Origin: a virus
Strand: one strand, 5' to 3'
Length of the DNA stretch: 31,633 nucleotides
IMG/VR virus record: IMGVR_UViG_3300027833_000153
Location: 1 to 31,633 of that record
Both the position numbers and the translations under genes were made by a program. Under the pieces are notes generated by a model, which had not been told where the DNA came from, did no database searches, and saw only the letters and a list, made by a program, of their open reading frames with translations. Positions 2,989 to 19,612 of the stretch are shown here, in pieces. The stretch's first letter is position 1. Every line of letters starts with the position of its first letter.

Positions 2989-4394
2989 GATTGAGAAAGA
3001 AGTACCAGAACGGAGGGGGAGTTCCTGGAGGGGATCCAAAGCGCGAAGCAGAGCAGCTTGCCTTTGCTCAACTCTTAAAAGACGAGGCTTTTAAGAAGAA
3101 GCTGGAAGAGAAGATGCGCTTGCGTGATGAGTACGGGGTCTACGCTGACGACGCTGCTGGTCTCCCATCTATCGATCCATTCCTGGCTTTGACTGCAGCG
3201 GGGGATGCAGAAGCCATCGGTTCTGGACTTTCAGAAATGGCTGGTGGAGACCTACTTACTGGAGCAGGAAACGTTATGCTCGGTGCCGCCAGCCTCGCAA
3301 TCCCTGGTACCCTCCCGAAGATTAAGAACGTAAGGGGACTGGATGTAACATTGAGAGACGTTAACATGCCTGCGCATAGAGGCAATGTCGCTGACATAAC
3401 TGTAGGGGACATAGAGCTGGCCAGTATGTCAAGGAATGAAGACGTACTCGTCCAGGGAAGACCGATGTATGAGCCAGACATTAATGCTGGTGCGTCCAAA
3501 CTAGCGGAAAGTAAGGACAGGTTAGCCTATCTAAAAAAGAACGACCCAACATCAAGTGAGATACCAACGCTTGAGAAGAGTCTCATCAATCGACTAGGCA
3601 AGTACCCCGAGGAAGTTGCGGACATGTCGGCGGGGTCTATTAGAAGGGCTATGGCCGATGCGACAAAAGAAATGCTGGATCATGTTCCTATTGGAGCAAA
3701 GACTGGAGCCACGTCATACTCTACAGACTCTTACCCTATTGTATTGCAGCGATGGGCTAAGGGTCAGCTGTCCGCAAACCGATTTGATGACGTCAGCCGA
3801 TTTGAGGGTGACCTATTGAACCAATCTGGAAAGAAATATAAAAACTCTCCTGAGGTAGAGCAGTGGCACAAAAGATACGAGGGCAATGAAGAGGTGGTAG
3901 GGTATTATAACGACGATTTTTTCGACAACACTTTTTCGCCACGCAATCAAATGGATTTCGATCAGTTTACTCGTATCGATCCTGCTGCCAAAGCTGCTGT
4001 AGATGGGAACAATTTAAACAGAGCGGAAGACTTATACGATAAGTACCGTGCTCAAGCAGACAATCCGTTTGGCGTTAGCTCATTCGGTACGTCTGGGTCT
4101 GAGGCCATCTTAGATTTTGATGAGGCTCAAGAACTGGCAGATATATTCAACAAAAGAATTCGTGCCGCTGCTGACAGGAGACCGTCAAAGCAGGCCAATA
4201 TGTTGAAGAGGGGGGACAATAAGGCTAAAGCGCAGATAGGAAAAGACGAAGGTATCCCACTCGCTAAAGTCGTAGACAGAGGGGAGGGGTTCACCATTGT
4301 CTACCCCCAGATTCCGTTCCACAGAAACTTTGAGGAAGGGGGTAAGTTCAAGATCAAAAGGCAGCGCCCGACAGGGATGCAAGTAAAGAGATGA
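2985..4394 (+). CDS. Tagged virion-associated protein of unknown function
   Basis: 469 residues. The N-terminus MRLRKKYQNGG belongs to the tag shared with the late genes at 19879, 20712, 21338, 23296, 24455 and 24901. The C-terminus has EEGGKFKIKRQRP, a basic GG tail like those ending the genes at 19879 and 21338. After the tag comes a charged helix (to about residue 45) and then an Ala/Gly-rich hydrophobic stretch around residues 60-105 which could interact with membrane. The rest is soluble without a recognised catalytic motif. The start is fixed by an ATGA overlap with the holin. The tag suggests it is packaged in or ejected from the particle; that is inference. It is the last gene of the left plus-strand block and is followed by hairpins. 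Confidence 0.75.
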   Translation: MRLRKKYQNGGGVPGGDPKREAEQLAFAQLLKDEAFKKKLEEKMRLRDEYGVYADDAAGLPSIDPFLALTAAGDAEAIGSGLSEMAGGDLLTGAGNVMLGAASLAIPGTLPKIKNVRGLDVTLRDVNMPAHRGNVADITVGDIELASMSRNEDVLVQGRPMYEPDINAGASKLAESKDRLAYLKKNDPTSSEIPTLEKSLINRLGKYPEEVADMSAGSIRRAMADATKEMLDHVPIGAKTGATSYSTDSYPIVLQRWAKGQLSANRFDDVSRFEGDLLNQSGKKYKNSPEVEQWHKRYEGNEEVVGYYNDDFFDNTFSPRNQMDFDQFTRIDPAAKAAVDGNNLNRAEDLYDKYRAQADNPFGVSSFGTSGSEAILDFDEAQELADIFNKRIRAAADRRPSKQANMLKRGDNKAKAQIGKDEGIPLAKVVDRGEGFTIVYPQIPFHRNFEEGGKFKIKRQRPTGMQVKR

Positions 4395-5764: not shown

Positions 5765-7607
5765 CGCCCTGTAATATACCACCAAAGGATGTATTAGGGG
5801 CAATAGTATACCTGATTTTATCAATAGGAATCTCTTTCTGAACACCTCCAGTAAAAGACAACGGGCTAATGATTGGCTTTTGTTTGCCCCACTCCACGAA
5901 ACCCGTGTGAGAATTATTCATAATCATCTTAAAGGGTTCGTCAAGAGATGAGGGCTGACCTCCAGTCTCTGTCTCCCTTACCTTCCTGATATGAACCTCT
6001 GTCATGCTACGAGTATGCGGGTCAGGGGCCTGCACCTTTCGGTGTATAGTGAGGAAGCAGTCCGCTCTGTTCACAAACTTACCGCCCCCCTCTGTGTCTT
6101 CTGCATAGGGTGCGCTCGGTAATCCATCCGCCCCCTTCCTTCTCTGTGCCTCAGTGACAGCGTGCATGTTCAACCATACAGCGACATCGTTATTCTTACT
6201 GAATGTAAGGAAAGATGTAGCAGCCTCGTAGTGGTAGTCGTGAGTGTTCTGCATCTCAGACTTCCGAAGGTCTAGCCGCAAGCTATTGTATGGGTCTACA
6301 AACACCGCGTCGATGCCGTGATAGAACTGTGTCTTCTCCATGAAGGTGATCATGTCCATGTATGTGTAAACATGGGTCGTGGTCACGATATAGAAGTGGT
6401 CGTTCACGAACTCGTATGAAGCCTTGCGCTCCTGGTAGGTCATGTTGGCTACCTTCTTGTCGCAGACCATTTGCATCAGTGACATCTTGATGCTGCTTGT
6501 TCTATTCTCCGCACTGTAGATCATCCACTTCCAACCATGGCGAATTGTGGAGTTAGCGATTAGGTACAGAGCACTGGTGGTTTTACCCACGTTACTGTGT
6601 CCGTTCATGATAACGAACTCTTTCTTGTACCGAAAGTATTTATCTAGCTCCTCACTACCAGTGTCTAATCCCTGCTCAATACGCCCTTGACTAAAGTCCT
6701 CGATCCATTGGAAGTCATCATCCGCGTCTACCAAGAAGCTTAAGTCCCCATCCTCGATGCGCATTTGTCTTTGCGCTTCCTCCTCTTGCTGTACGATGTC
6801 GCGTATAGGACGCGTCTTACCATGCTCAATGCCTTCTCGGATTGCATCCAAGGCAGATTGCATACTGTCTATATCTCTTTTAGATATCTCCCTAGAGAGG
6901 ACGCGGATAACCTCCTCCTCTTCCATCTTACCAGCAGCGATGTATCCACCGCAGAGCGTGGCTGCTTTGATTAGCACATTGTGCTTCTCTCCATGCGATG
7001 CATTGCGCACCATACGGGCAGCGATATTGAGTTTGTCATAGTCAGTGTGTTGAGGTGTCGGCTCTAAGGCTGGCTCCTCAAACTTCTCTTCACTAACAAA
7101 CTTCCCGAACTTCTGGCTGACAGTCTTAATGACTATCTCAGGGTCATAGCTCTCAAAACACGCACGGCTTTCATTGATGCCGCTCTCGTCTAGGTCAAGG
7201 CCATACCTCCCGTCGAAGTATCGGACAAGGGCTCTGAAGTGATCCCTGTGTCGCTCTGGATTGCTTACTCTTACTAGCGCCTTTACGCCAGTACCTGATG
7301 GGGATTCCCAACAGCTGTAGATGTACTCGTCTGTAGCAAGTACCTTCTTAGTAGATTCAACTTCAACGTGATCAAAGTCAAGAACTATGTAACTACTGTG
7401 TTCGTTGATGTCATTATCGGAACGAGACGAGAACTCCCCACTGAACAATACAGCGGGGAGTTGCATCTTCTTCTCTTTGTTTCCCGATCTTACACTTTCA
7501 ACTACTGTACGTGACCTCCCGTCCCGAATGCGATGCAGTGCTTGAACTACTGTCAACGGGTGCGGACTGGCCTTGTCGTATATGCTTCTGAAGATCGTTA
7601 TGTTCAT
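5739..7607 (-). CDS. Primase-helicase fusion (BT4734/VirE-N-type PrimPol plus RecA-fold helicase)
   Basis: 622 residues. The N-terminal third matches BT4734-like primase domains of Bacteroidetes elements: YIVLDFDH (residues 73-80, the two-Asp metal motif of archaeo-eukaryotic-type primases) and SPSGTGVKAL (102-111). A linker follows, then a RecA/DnaB-like motor with Walker A GHSNVGKTT (336-344), Walker B AVFVDPYN (434-441) and later motifs ending in IRKVRETETGG. It should open the fork and make primers or prime-polymerise; it is the only replicative helicase in the window. The start at 7607 is chosen because the PrimPol domain begins immediately; this gives a 110-base overlap with the upstream gene. 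No DNA polymerase is visible here. Confidence 0.85.
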   Translation of the reverse strand: MNITIFRSIYDKASPHPLTVVQALHRIRDGRSRTVVESVRSGNKEKKMQLPAVLFSGEFSSRSDNDINEHSSYIVLDFDHVEVESTKKVLATDEYIYSCWESPSGTGVKALVRVSNPERHRDHFRALVRYFDGRYGLDLDESGINESRACFESYDPEIVIKTVSQKFGKFVSEEKFEEPALEPTPQHTDYDKLNIAARMVRNASHGEKHNVLIKAATLCGGYIAAGKMEEEEVIRVLSREISKRDIDSMQSALDAIREGIEHGKTRPIRDIVQQEEEAQRQMRIEDGDLSFLVDADDDFQWIEDFSQGRIEQGLDTGSEELDKYFRYKKEFVIMNGHSNVGKTTSALYLIANSTIRHGWKWMIYSAENRTSSIKMSLMQMVCDKKVANMTYQERKASYEFVNDHFYIVTTTHVYTYMDMITFMEKTQFYHGIDAVFVDPYNSLRLDLRKSEMQNTHDYHYEAATSFLTFSKNNDVAVWLNMHAVTEAQRRKGADGLPSAPYAEDTEGGGKFVNRADCFLTIHRKVQAPDPHTRSMTEVHIRKVRETETGGQPSSLDEPFKMIMNNSHTGFVEWGKQKPIISPLSFTGGVQKEIPIDKIRYTIAPNTSFGGILQGDEEEEVSD

Positions 7608-7857
7608 CGCGGGCGATGATTAACAGGATGAGGTAACCCGCCAAGTCCAGTAGGGTATCCTCTGTCTCGTCGTTCAAGCCAGCGTTTTGTATGCGCTTCA
7701 ACTTGTCGTCGATACGTTGTCGTATCCCATACTCGGCATTGGCGGAAGAAAAAACGTTCAGAGGGGACAGCGCACTGTCACCATAAGCGTCATTCTTTTC
7801 CAGCAGCAACTCCCTAACGGTGTTAGTCGCCGCTACTATCTGTTCCCTTCTGGTCAT
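7498..7857 (-). CDS. DUF1599-like (nucleotide-modification-associated/MazG-like) protein
   Basis: 119 residues. The pattern LLLEKNDAYGDSALSPLNVF...GIRQRIDDKLKRI...DTLLDLAGYLILL is typical of the DUF1599 family, which in phages is linked with nucleotide metabolism and hypermodified DNA and is helical like MazG pyrophosphohydrolases. The core ends near residue 85; the last 35 residues are Ser-rich and are encoded in the 110-base overlap with the primase-helicase. No base-modifying enzyme is visible nearby, so its substrate remains open. Overlaps the upstream gene by 35 bases. Confidence 0.7.
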   Translation of the reverse strand: MTRREQIVAATNTVRELLLEKNDAYGDSALSPLNVFSSANAEYGIRQRIDDKLKRIQNAGLNDETEDTLLDLAGYLILLIIARDEHNDLQKHIRQGQSAPVDSSSSTASHSGREVTYSS

Positions 7858-16266: not shown

Positions 16267-16461
16267 TCAGGGTTGTGGTGGGGGTTGTGGGTTTGACACA
16301 GACGCCTCTCGGCGGGCATACTCCGCCGCTTGCTCGTCAGTCCAAGAGACTGCGCCCTCTTGGTAGCATTCGTCGCACCGCTCGACGTATTCTTTCTCGC
16401 CGAGTGTACGGGTGGTGTGGATGTAGCCTTTGCCGCTACAGGTTTCGCATTGTGTGCTCAT
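16267..16461 (-). CDS. Zinc-ribbon protein with hammerhead-derived 3' end
   Basis: 64 residues from MSTQCETCSGKGYIH at 16461; a longer frame to 16524 is rejected because the upstream gene ends at 16463. CETCSGKGY ... CDEC is a DnaJ-like zinc ribbon. The final 25 codons (from WTDEQAAEYARREASVSN on) are encoded by DNA that matches the 3' half of the two hammerhead ribozymes of this block at 16295-16340, followed by a Pro/Gln tail from the same CCCACAACCCCC leader sequence. So the C-terminus appears to be captured ribozyme/leader DNA. Confidence 0.6.
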   Translation of the reverse strand: MSTQCETCSGKGYIHTTRTLGEKEYVERCDECYQEGAVSWTDEQAAEYARREASVSNPQPPPQP

Positions 16462-17514: not shown

Positions 17515-17566
17515 CAAATGTAGTGGATTGTTGAAGGGTTGTCAAGGCTTTTAACACTTTTTAACA
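17515..17566 (-). promoter_or_regulatory. Early promoter P4 (TTGACA-N17-TACATTTG with TGTTAAA repeat)
   Basis: Minus strand: TGTTAAA at 17566-17560 and 17556-17550, TTGACA at 17545-17540, 17-bp spacer, TACATTTG at 17522-17515. Serves the 72-residue gene at 17486. Preceded by a tRNA-like hairpin. Confidence 0.87.
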
Positions 17567-17576
17567 TTTGAGTTGG

Positions 17577-17626
17577 AGCGCAGAGGGGACTCGAACCCCC
17601 CGCCCTTGCGGGCCACCATGTGCGCT
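17577..17626 (-). ncRNA. tRNA-like mini-RNA (acceptor and T-arm, no anticodon arm)
   Basis: On the minus strand AGCGCA (17626-17621) pairs with TGCGCT (17582-17577). Inside lie a GCCC-GCAA-GGGC hairpin (17613-17602, GNRA loop) and a T-arm, GGGGG-TTCGAGT-CCCCT (17600-17584), followed after the acceptor by CCA. It has the T-loop TTCGAGT of tRNAs but at 50 nt has no room for D and anticodon arms. It follows the metallopeptidase gene by 9 bases and precedes promoter P4. It may be a processing (RNase P/Z) signal, a tRNA mimic, or a tRNA remnant. Confidence 0.45.
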
Positions 17627-17635
17627 TGTGTGTGT

Positions 17636-18082
17636 TCACTCGAAGTATCCGCCGAACAATTCCCAAGCCACCTCGTCTGTGACCTCGTACTTGTGGTACT
17701 TACACATCAGCGGGCAACTTTCGTTGTGCTCAACCCCAAGGACGCTGTGAAGTAACTCGTGTAGGGTCGTGTACAGAAGCTCGGTGTGTGTGCTCGTGTC
17801 ACTTGCGCCCTCGCAAGTCCCTTTGACGATGTGGACGATGTTGCGCCCAAGCCAAGCGTATCCAAGGGTGGAGCACTCGCCCCCGTCCACGATTCGGACC
17901 TCTTGCCTCGGTAGGCGCGGGTGTCCGTTCGCCTGTAGTCGGCGGTTGGCATCGTAGATGATGTCGATGACCTTGCGCCGAAGGGCGTACACGCTGTCAT
18001 CCATGCGCATTGGCTCGTGTCCGTATGCCCCGCGAGTACGGCGGCGAGTAGAGCGGGAGGGGGTGGGGGTGGGTGTGTTCAT
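17636..18082 (-). CDS. Putative zinc metallopeptidase (HExxH, metzincin-like), ribozyme-led
   Basis: 148 residues from MNTPTPTPSRS at 18082. A Pro/Thr/Arg-rich N-terminus is followed by a compact domain with TLHELLHSVLGVEH (active site at residues 108-119) and CPLM (Met126), which recall the HExxHxxGxxH helix and Met-turn of metzincins, but with one extra residue before the Gly. CECS and EGASDTSTH are nearby. No signal peptide, so it would act in the cytoplasm unless released at lysis. Its mRNA start is a hammerhead cleavage site 21 nt upstream of the ATG. Confidence 0.6.
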   Translation of the reverse strand: MNTPTPTPSRSTRRRTRGAYGHEPMRMDDSVYALRRKVIDIIYDANRRLQANGHPRLPRQEVRIVDGGECSTLGYAWLGRNIVHIVKGTCEGASDTSTHTELLYTTLHELLHSVLGVEHNESCPLMCKYHKYEVTDEVAWELFGGYFE

Positions 18083-18097
18083 GTGTGTGTGGGTTTT

Positions 18098-18147
18098 GAC
18101 ACAGACGCCTCTCGGCGTTTCGACCAATCAGGTCTCGTCAGTGTGCC
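18098..18147 (-). ncRNA. Hammerhead ribozyme A (type I), 5' of metallopeptidase gene
   Basis: Minus strand, all conserved parts present. Stem I: GGCACA (18147-18142) with UGUGUC (18103-18098), one G-U pair. Core CUGACGA (18141-18135). Stem II: GACC/GGUC (18134-18131 with 18125-18122), 5-nt loop. GAAA (18121-18118). Stem III: CGCC/GGCG with a GAGA loop (18117-18106), closed by the A118-U105 pair. Cleavage after C18104. The 3' product would begin at 18103, giving a 21-nt 5'-OH leader to the ATG at 18082. It lies between two genes, in a gap of 79 bases. Confidence 0.9.
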
Positions 18148-18161
18148 TGACTTTCAGCGAG

Positions 18162-18431
18162 TTAGATGGTGAATCCGTGGCACTCCAACTGACGCTTGTT
18201 CTCGCGGCTCTGGCACTCGTCTGCGATGGCTCGCCAATACGCTTCGATGTCCAGCAATTGGTGGAAGAAGGCAAGCCGTTGGTCGTACGCCTGATCCTCG
18301 CGCATCAGGCCCTCCTTGACGCTCTTGCGGCGGTCGATGCACCACTGCACCATTGAATCGAAGGTGGATTGGTCGAGGGTTTGCAGGGACGCAATCGCGT
18401 TTTGGCAGCTAGGGGTAAGGGTGTATTCCAT
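18162..18431 (-). CDS. Small helical protein of unknown function, ribozyme-led
   Basis: 89 residues, ATG at 18431. MEYTLTPSCQNAIASLQTLD opens; FDSMVQWCIDRRKSVKEGLM and FFHQLLDIEAYWRAIADECQ are helices. No family recognised. The start follows hammerhead B by 24 bases and a CA-rich leader; the stop precedes hammerhead A by 14 bases. So the gene is flanked by ribozymes and would be cut out as a separate mRNA. Confidence 0.65.
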   Translation of the reverse strand: MEYTLTPSCQNAIASLQTLDQSTFDSMVQWCIDRRKSVKEGLMREDQAYDQRLAFFHQLLDIEAYWRAIADECQSRENKRQLECHGFTI

Positions 18432-18455
18432 GTGTGTGTGGGGGGTTGTGGGTTT

Positions 18456-18505
18456 GACACAGACGCCTCACGGCGTTTCGGCTACTTAAGCCTCGTCAGT
18501 GTGCC
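18456..18505 (-). ncRNA. Hammerhead ribozyme B (type I), 5' of 18162-18431 gene
   Basis: Minus strand. Stem I: GGCACA (18505-18500) with UGUGUC (18461-18456). Core CUGACGA (18499-18493). Stem II: GGCU/AGCC (18492-18489 with 18483-18480) with a 5-nt loop. GAAA (18479-18476). Stem III: CGCC/GGCG with a GUGA loop (18475-18464). Cleavage after C18462, leaving a 30-nt 5'-OH leader. Relative to copy A, pairs 2 and 4 of stem II change on both sides (A-U to G-C, C-G to U-A) and the stem III loop stays GNRA: compensatory evidence for a maintained fold. Confidence 0.9.
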
Positions 18506-18518
18506 TGACTGCCTACGC

Positions 18519-19070
18519 TCAGAAGGCCATTTCGAGTTGGCCCTCCTCCGCAATCGCCGCCGCCACAATCGCCTCCTGCTCGGCGAGCCAGTGTGCCTTC
18601 GCAAGGTTGGCAGCTTCGACGATGGTCAGCCCTGCGGGGATTTTGCCTGCACTCTCGACCGCTCGGGGTGTGTACCCCTCAGGTGCGGACACCACCTCCG
18701 AACGTGTGCCGTCCACGGCTTCGACCACCTCGGTACGGGAGGCCAAGTCCTTCGCCGCTCTCGCCTCCGCCTTTCGCAGGGACTCACGTTGTGCCCTTGC
18801 CTCCATACGGTCGTTCGAGGACTTGCCCCCTTGACCCGCCTTCTTCGCCATCTCCTTCGGAGAGGTGTGCTTGCGCTGCTTTGCCCAAGCTGCCTTGTTG
18901 GCGGCCTTTCGTTCGGCCCTTGTGGGCTTGGATGCCTTGGGTGTGCTTGCCTTACGCTTGGGCTTGGGCTTGGACGCTTGCTCGGCGGCAAACTTCGCTT
19001 TGTTGGCGGCCTTCCGCTCTGCTCTCGTGAGCTTGCGGCCTTCGGCGGTGTGAGTAGGAGTGTATGTCAT
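18519..19070 (-). CDS. Lys/Ala-rich basic protein, first gene of the early block (after P5)
   Basis: 183 residues from MTYTPTHTAEGRKL at 19070. Two near-identical segments TRAERKAANKA occur at about residues 15-28 and 50-63, followed by a long charged helix and an Ala-rich C-terminal helix ending EEGQLEMAF. Low-complexity, very basic N-terminal half suggests nucleic-acid or host-polymerase binding. As the first product of the strongest position in the block it could be a host-takeover or histone-like protein; no family was recognised. Codon third positions are very GC-rich. Start is 26 bases past the -7 element of P5; an ATG at 19091 is rejected as too close. Confidence 0.6.
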   Translation of the reverse strand: MTYTPTHTAEGRKLTRAERKAANKAKFAAEQASKPKPKRKASTPKASKPTRAERKAANKAAWAKQRKHTSPKEMAKKAGQGGKSSNDRMEARAQRESLRKAEARAAKDLASRTEVVEAVDGTRSEVVSAPEGYTPRAVESAGKIPAGLTIVEAANLAKAHWLAEQEAIVAAAIAEEGQLEMAF

Positions 19071-19095
19071 GGGGGTTGTGTTTTGAACCATGCCG

Positions 19096-19147
19096 CAAAC
19101 TTAGGGTATTGTTGAAAGGTTGTCAAGGGTTTAGAGGGTGTTTAACA
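19096..19147 (-). promoter_or_regulatory. Early promoter P5 (TTGACA-N17-TAAGTTTG, one TGTTAAA half)
   Basis: Minus strand: TGTTAAA at 19147-19141; the second half-repeat is degenerate. TTGACA at 19126-19121, 17-bp spacer, TAAGTTTG at 19103-19096. Probably starts the whole leftward block. Confidence 0.82.
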
Positions 19148-19612
19148 TTTGTTGGGAAATTAAAGTGCTGACAATCAGCGAGTTAAGGGTGAAAAAGTTT
19201 TTGCCTCGCAGCGGCGGGTGTTACACGTAGGCATGACGTAGGGGGGTGATGTGCGGGACACGTGTGGGGGGGCTTGGGTGCATAGCGCAAGAGCGGGTGG
19301 GGGTTGTGCCCGTGATGCGTGCGTCATGCGTGTGCCATGCGTGCATGATGCGTGCGTGTCGCGAGGGAAAAAGCTGAAATCCTAGCGGGCCTATGGGATA
19401 TGTGAGGGGGAGGGGGTCGCAGGGTTGCGTTCGGGTGCGCGTCACATACGTGTACACATATATATAATCCCCCGCATACAATGTTCTCCCATTTTTTTGA
19501 CGATCCTGTCCTGCTTTCGCCCCTTGTAGTCTCTGCACAGCTGTCTCACTTTCGTCAGGGTCCTCAGACCCCTGGCGCGTTTGCGACGTTGTTGACATGT
19601 GGTACACAGGGG
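19148..19612. other. Divergent control region, no convincing gene
   Basis: Between the leftward P5 and the rightward promoter. It contains a GCTGA/TCAGC hairpin near 19169, the 11-bp-phased ATGCGTG array, an AT-rich stretch with GTGTACAC at about 19450-19470, and a CAGGGTC/GACCC hairpin at 19556-19574. An ORF on the minus strand (19221-19649) is low-complexity and spans these elements, so no gene is called. This is a candidate origin or operator region. Confidence 0.5.
19315..19358. repeat. Four ATGCGTG direct repeats with 11-bp period (iterons)
   Basis: ATGCGTG starts at 19315, 19326, 19337 and 19348, exactly 11 bp apart, so all copies face the same side of the helix. Typical of an initiator or repressor array. 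Binding partner unknown; the DnaA-like or HTH-like phage proteins are candidates. Confidence 0.7.

Follow-up and report, generated by a model that had tools for sequence, protein, structure and literature searches.

Hammerhead ribozymes occur in prophages as clusters on one strand that flank single genes or short blocks of genes, and Perreault et al. (2011; PMC3088659) proposed that they process long transcripts into mRNAs for operons or single genes. According to the same text, three natural clusters self-cleave in vitro and one of these also does so in E. coli. It further describes HHphage, of the haloviruses HF1 and HF2, which lies 13 nt upstream of a start codon in an early operon and whose cleavage site is linked to a mapped transcript 5' end (PMC3088659). 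An association of hammerheads with Mu-like phages is mentioned in PMC10085705, and for phage hammerhead arrays after 2011 the open-access literature gave only this note besides PMC3088659; the role of prokaryotic hammerheads was still termed an open question in 2017 (PMC6155905). The general idea that hammerheads process phage transcripts is thus not new, having been put forward in 2011 (PMC3088659). What we add is an example from a phage operon, together with three regularities of its family: how far the predicted cut lies from the downstream ATG, how often a hammerhead touches the stop codon of the gene before it, and how uniform the leaders are within a phage.

Copies A and B in a leftward phage operon

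The window, by which we mean the whole 31,633-base virus record analysed, contains terminase, primase/helicase and exonuclease genes; replication-type genes run leftward from about 19.1 kb, and the terminase and others run rightward. The first leftward operon has the order promoter, gene 1, hammerhead copy B, gene 2, hammerhead copy A, gene 3, tRNA-like element, next promoter. Both internal junctions of this three-gene operon carry a hammerhead, and copies A and B flank gene 2 (18162-18431, minus strand, 89 aa) on its own strand, giving more than one hammerhead in a single phage operon. The promoter ahead of gene 1 (TTGAC...TAAGTTTG, 19096-19126, minus) is one of five with the form TTGAC...TAnnTT[TC]G that precede leftward genes, the other four being at 17545, 17252, 15687 and 12826. 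This form is of the Bacteroidota type, and the host of the phage is therefore probably a Bacteroidota bacterium. Gene 1 (18519-19091, minus) encodes up to 190 aa, although the second ATG, at 19070, is the more likely start; its relatives were found in two other phage loci (L140 and L145). Gene 3 (17636-18082, minus, 148 aa) had been called a metallopeptidase, and it does contain the zinc-protease-like motif HELLHSVLGVEH, but the Pfam model Peptidase_M10 gave only 11.9 bits (E = 0.2), below its cut-off of 24. We found no relatives of gene 3 in viral_contigs or phages, and none of the ribozyme region or of one rightward-operon gene among GenBank phages.

Read 5' to 3' on the minus strand, copy A (18098-18147) is a complete type I hammerhead with an open stem I, identified by direct reading, Rfam alignment, folding, a held-out profile model and a structural descriptor. 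A stem I of 6 bp (18147-18142/18103-18098; GGCACA/UGUGUC) is followed by the core CUGACGA (18141-18135), stem II (18134-18131/18125-18122; GACC/GGUC, loop UGAUU), the core GAA (18121-18119), stem III (18118-18114/18109-18105; A-CGCC/GGCG-U, loop GAGA) and C17 (18104), with the predicted cut between 18104 and 18103. The original prediction had placed all core nucleotides, three stems and a GNRA loop on stem III at this site, and each was borne out; its coordinates (C17 = 18104, G8 = 18136, G12 = 18121) were right throughout, as was the location of copy A in the 79 nt that separate the stop of gene 2 (18162) from the ATG of gene 3 (18082). Its assignment to type I, with an open stem I and a predicted cut after C18104, is backed by the sequence, by covariation and by the profile model. 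Copy B (18456-18505, minus) lies 358 nt upstream in the same register, with the predicted cut between 18462 and 18461. The residues C3 U4 G5 A6 N7 G8 A9, G12 A13 A14, the A15.1-U16.1 pair and H17 are all present in both copies, and folding of the 50-mers gave three helices in each, with loops closing stems II and III and stem I open. The hammerhead is the lowest-energy fold of both isolated 50-mers (-17.9 kcal/mol for copy A). A strict descriptor (core, stem II of at least 3 bp, stem III of at least 4 bp, U-H, stem I of at least 4 bp) matched exactly twice in the 31,633-nt window, at copies A and B, and never in 400 dinucleotide-preserving shuffles of it. We have very little doubt that copies A and B are hammerhead ribozymes.

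The leader predicted to follow cut A (18083-18103, minus; UGUGUCAAAACCCACACACAC) would carry a 5'-OH and has the 21 nt originally claimed for it. The leader after cut B (18432-18461, minus) has 30 nt and contains UCAAACCCACAACCCCC, which is similar to the leader that follows the gene 1 promoter (shuffle p = 0.002); for the cut-A leader the corresponding value is p = 0.05.

Two other elements were noticed in this region. An 18-nt repeat (TAACTCGCTGAnnGTCAG, minus) lies at 18147-18164 before copy A and again at 19168-19185; this second occurrence is ahead of the operon promoter and has no ribozyme after it. About 10 nt past the stop of gene 3 there is a tRNA-like element (17574-17626, minus) with a 6-bp acceptor-type stem, a T arm (GGGGGUUCGAGUCCCCU) and a CCA end, in which a GCAA hairpin replaces the D and anticodon arms. 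It scored 21.4 bits with the Rfam model mascRNA-menRNA, below the cut-off, is not called by ARAGORN, and has no exact sequence relatives in viral_contigs. Its role could be that of an RNase P site or of an attachment site.

A family of compact phage hammerheads

A single strict pattern matched at least 119 stretches in IMG/VR, and 16 among 84,980 genomes of bacteria and archaea, including Paenibacillus, Clostridia, Gemmatimonadaceae, Acidobacteriaceae, an Aliivibrio MAG and others. A copy is carried by contigs of the culturable Paenibacillus daejeonensis (L123 and L125). Stem I comprised 3-7 bp in all 110 of the non-redundant copies listed, and mostly 0-1 bp after random re-pairing of the 3' strands. 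We aligned 72 phage copies, leaving out the window; they had been selected for a stem I of at least 4 bp, a choice that slightly biases the alignment in favor of stem I. Of its cells, 96.9% are paired; two-sided changes number 295, whereas shuffles have 78 +/- 8, and the covariation score is 0.673 versus 0.136. Two-sided changes are seen in all stem I and stem II pairs outside the search pattern (six in stem I and the three variable ones in stem II). Stem III is fixed by the pattern, and stem III variants in members of the arrays also pair. With the held-out model built from these 72 copies, copy A scored 66.2 bits and copy B 67.0 bits (E about 1e-21), part of which stems from the core and stem III, both fixed by the search pattern. 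The same model gave 223 matches across the 119 loci listed. As regards a possible tertiary contact between loop II and stem I, in the group with a 6-bp stem I loop II fits UNANW in 35 of 44 five-nucleotide loops, and an A is found at -7 in 54 of 66.

Over 61 nt, copies A and B share 87% identity. Their differences include a compensatory exchange in stem II (ACC/GGU in A, GCU/AGC in B) and a change in loop III from GAGA to GUGA, both GNRA. Taken with the strong family covariation, the compensatory changes show that the fold is under selection. A third copy, which did not figure in the original prediction, is a 3'-half remnant (copy C, 16274-16314, minus) that retains stem III, UC, the 3' strand of stem I and the leader; it is 97% identical to copy B over 35 nt and scored 8.8 bits with the held-out phage model. 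Since copy C lacks the stem I partner and GAAA, it should be unable to cleave. It is read through as the C-terminal codons (RREASVSNP...) of an ORF (16267-16461) resembling a DnaJ zinc finger. One could regard all the copies as fossils without function that recombination has carried from one gene junction to another: copy C is truncated, A, B and C have one repeat in common, and a competing fold is predicted to win over the hammerhead in the flanks of A and B (see below). However, every core residue is kept in A and B, and the evidence of selection for the fold given above makes this explanation very improbable. The decay of copy C does imply that a hammerhead is not indispensable at every junction.

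The comparison with Rfam that the original prediction had proposed gave a divided result. The model Hammerhead_1 (RF00163) covered copy A exactly, from 18147 to 18098, yet its 21.7 bits (E = 0.63 for the window) fall short of the gathering score of 34, so that copy A would escape a default Rfam scan. Similarly, 47 phage copies found by the phage model (E <= 0.001) in ten loci included none that reached the gathering score of any Rfam hammerhead model. At a relaxed threshold, Hammerhead_1 did find some phage copies, at 24.9-29.7 bits. Type III was rejected as a better fit, Hammerhead_3 giving copy B only 18.3 bits versus 48.5. A gathering score is a database cut-off and not a structural feature, and because every structural feature is present in copies A and B, we attribute the low scores to a limitation in the Rfam model. 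The compact phage form is overlooked when Rfam is used at its default settings, and its abundance in viral metagenomes is likely underestimated.

Several loci depart from the common form. On the plus strand of L030, a type II hammerhead (1587-1663; 42.1 bits with Rfam, above gathering) is followed about 400 nt downstream by a type I copy (2013-2062). In L029 (region 3823-4256) and L079 (region 1061-1449), both minus, the hammerhead has no ORF after it; what follows is about 250-290 nt of partly conserved sequence (AACTAAAGGAATCGGTTGTCGGTGACGGGTGAGCAGG), a promoter of the form TTGACT/TATAAT, and an unusual tRNA-like gene that is annotated as tRNA-Cys(aca). In L047 (region 7527-7681, minus) a hammerhead lies about 40 nt ahead of a tRNA gene with an unassigned anticodon. 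The matches in L066 (816-861, minus) and L099 (8663-8707, plus) have short stems and are followed by a common motif, GTGGAGT...CCCA-GC-GGGGAATAAC, which sets them apart from the leader copies; they may represent another ribozyme context. Finally, L007 (1650-1704), L044 (5815-5868) and L056 (8492-8546) have UGGUAC in loop II and ACCA shortly after stem I (AGGAAACCA), and a pseudoknot between loop II and the tail is possible in this subgroup.

Layout around genes and the proposed role

We examined the surroundings of 189 distinct copies among the matches listed, using a simple ORF finder after removal of near-duplicates. The distance from the predicted cut to the ATG has a median of 27 nt and is at most 60 nt in 173 of the 188 measurable copies listed; for the starting set, the rate within 60 nt was 18% on the opposite strand and 32% at random sites. 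In 105 of the 180 copies listed, versus about 13 expected, the stop of the longest ORF upstream falls no more than 15 nt from the hammerhead start, with peaks at +2, +6 and +10, i.e., the start of stem I, the end of stem I and the UGA of CUGA. All 48 multi-copy loci among the matches listed are single-strand, with none mixed. Across a whole record, the copies are gathered in a single cluster, of up to 8 in about 6.5 kb, and many arrays have some junctions without a hammerhead. The downstream genes are small (median 107 aa) and mostly of unknown function; where a PHROG is known, those listed belong to replication, recombination or regulation. Among the 25 downstream families listed of 38, the annotated ones are DNA polymerase, primase, a RecE-like exonuclease and a regulator, and none of the 25 is structural.

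Identity within a phage exceeds that between phages for stem I (0.78 versus 0.34) and for the leader, taken as the 10 nt after stem I (0.61 versus 0.34). The difference is smaller for stem II (0.55 versus 0.42), and for stem III, partly fixed by the search pattern, identity is 0.74 within and 0.78 between phages. Judged from these comparisons, the part held uniform within a phage is the part that would remain on the mRNA after the predicted cut.

We therefore favor, with a probability of about three in four, co-transcriptional cutting by the hammerheads between cistrons, which would yield near-monocistronic mRNAs with a standard 5'-OH leader. Each hammerhead would cut itself after C17 while RNA polymerase passes. 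The RNA of the upstream gene would then end in the folded stem II and III hairpins with a 2',3'-cyclic phosphate, and that of the downstream gene would begin with an A/C-rich 5'-OH leader of 21-30 nt, similar to the leader born at the promoter. Each gene would come to have a nearly monocistronic mRNA with the one standard leader, whatever the sequence upstream and without any need of host RNases. We infer all three of its cellular elements, namely cleavage in the cell, a benefit (leader standardization, insulation or stability) and early timing.

The uniformity of stem I could also be read as a trace of circularization, in which the 358-nt RNA released by cuts B and A is joined end to end, through reversal of the hammerhead reaction or by RtcB, to give a circular mRNA or a regulatory RNA. 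Because stem I is identical in copies A and B, the 5' UGUGUC of the excised RNA can pair with GGCACA of copy A; moreover, stem I is homogeneous within phages, and 32 of the 81 neighboring pairs listed have the same five 5'-strand bases. Most neighboring pairs, however, do not, and homogenization of leaders accounts for the uniformity of stem I. RtcB is absent from all 30 of the 30 related phage records, although a host may supply it, and Perreault et al. report that circular products were sought and none found (PMC3088659). We consider circularization most unlikely.

The original prediction that one polycistron becomes separate mRNAs fits the anatomy of the operon and the layout of the family, but the flanks of both copies favor another structure. 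Once 17-nt flanks are included, the predicted energies favor a competing fold over the hammerhead, by 4.9 kcal/mol for A and 3.2 kcal/mol for B; these values reflect secondary structure alone, without tertiary contacts or co-transcriptional folding. The family median for this comparison is 0, and copy A is among the worst tenth. A hairpin, GUCAG(GCACA)CUGAC (18137-18151, minus), takes up the 5' strand of stem I and the core; together with a second pairing, of UGUGU (18103-18099) with ACACA of the leader (18090-18086), it excludes the ribozyme fold. The competing fold might reduce cutting, serve as a switch specific to the window phage, or be irrelevant given tertiary contacts.

A regulated ribozyme would make use of such a fold, or of ribosomes finishing the upstream gene, to gate the cut, so that it occurs only at low upstream translation (or the reverse). 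Both stem I strands of A and B do have competing partners, and in the family the stop codons lie inside or adjoining stem I or on the UGA of CUGA, where a terminating ribosome would cover the ribozyme. But the competing hairpins are not conserved in phage relatives with the same stem I, and in the window the stops are 13-14 nt upstream of the hammerheads; contact with the stop could be mere compact packing. Nor is pairing of the leader 5' terminus above shuffles in the 110 copies listed (p = 0.13), being strong only in some phages, the window phage included, and we rejected a 5'-terminal leader hairpin as a general stabilizer for the same reason. Regulation of this kind is an unlikely primary role. 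A broader form of the cutting between cistrons that we favor, widespread in phages, would have a hammerhead docked on the upstream stop at each junction and stamp the same short 5'-OH leader on each mRNA of an operon, with upstream translation able to gate the cut, and would have been overlooked because Rfam cut-offs miss the compact form. We put this forward tentatively, as rather less than an even chance.

Comparison with known systems

RF00163 Hammerhead_1 is the nearest model, with the same topology and core and an end-to-end alignment on copy A, albeit at a score below gathering. Among described phage systems, the clusters of Perreault et al. (2011) resemble the window operon in that several same-strand hammerheads flank genes. 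They differ in that the window phage is known only from a metagenome, with an uncertain host, and that its type I copies are compact and regularly spaced from the ATG; moreover, copies of the family often touch the upstream stop and have leaders uniform per phage, regularities not present in the accessible text of 2011. The same regularities of distance, stop codon and leader were not found in the open-access literature, most subscription journals lying outside this coverage. HHphage of HF1 and HF2 (PMC3088659) has a variant core and is a single copy in an archaeal virus, whereas the window has the canonical core in two copies plus a remnant.

A fixed ATG distance, contact with the stop codon, and leaders that are uniform per phage and differ between phages make a specific role of these hammerheads testable. 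Cutting between cistrons to leave a defined leader has two other precedents: in T7 early mRNA the cut is made by RNase III, a protein enzyme of the host, and RiboJ is an engineered insulator that leaves a defined leader. The outcome in the window would be alike, but its cutter, neither a host enzyme nor engineered, is encoded in each junction.
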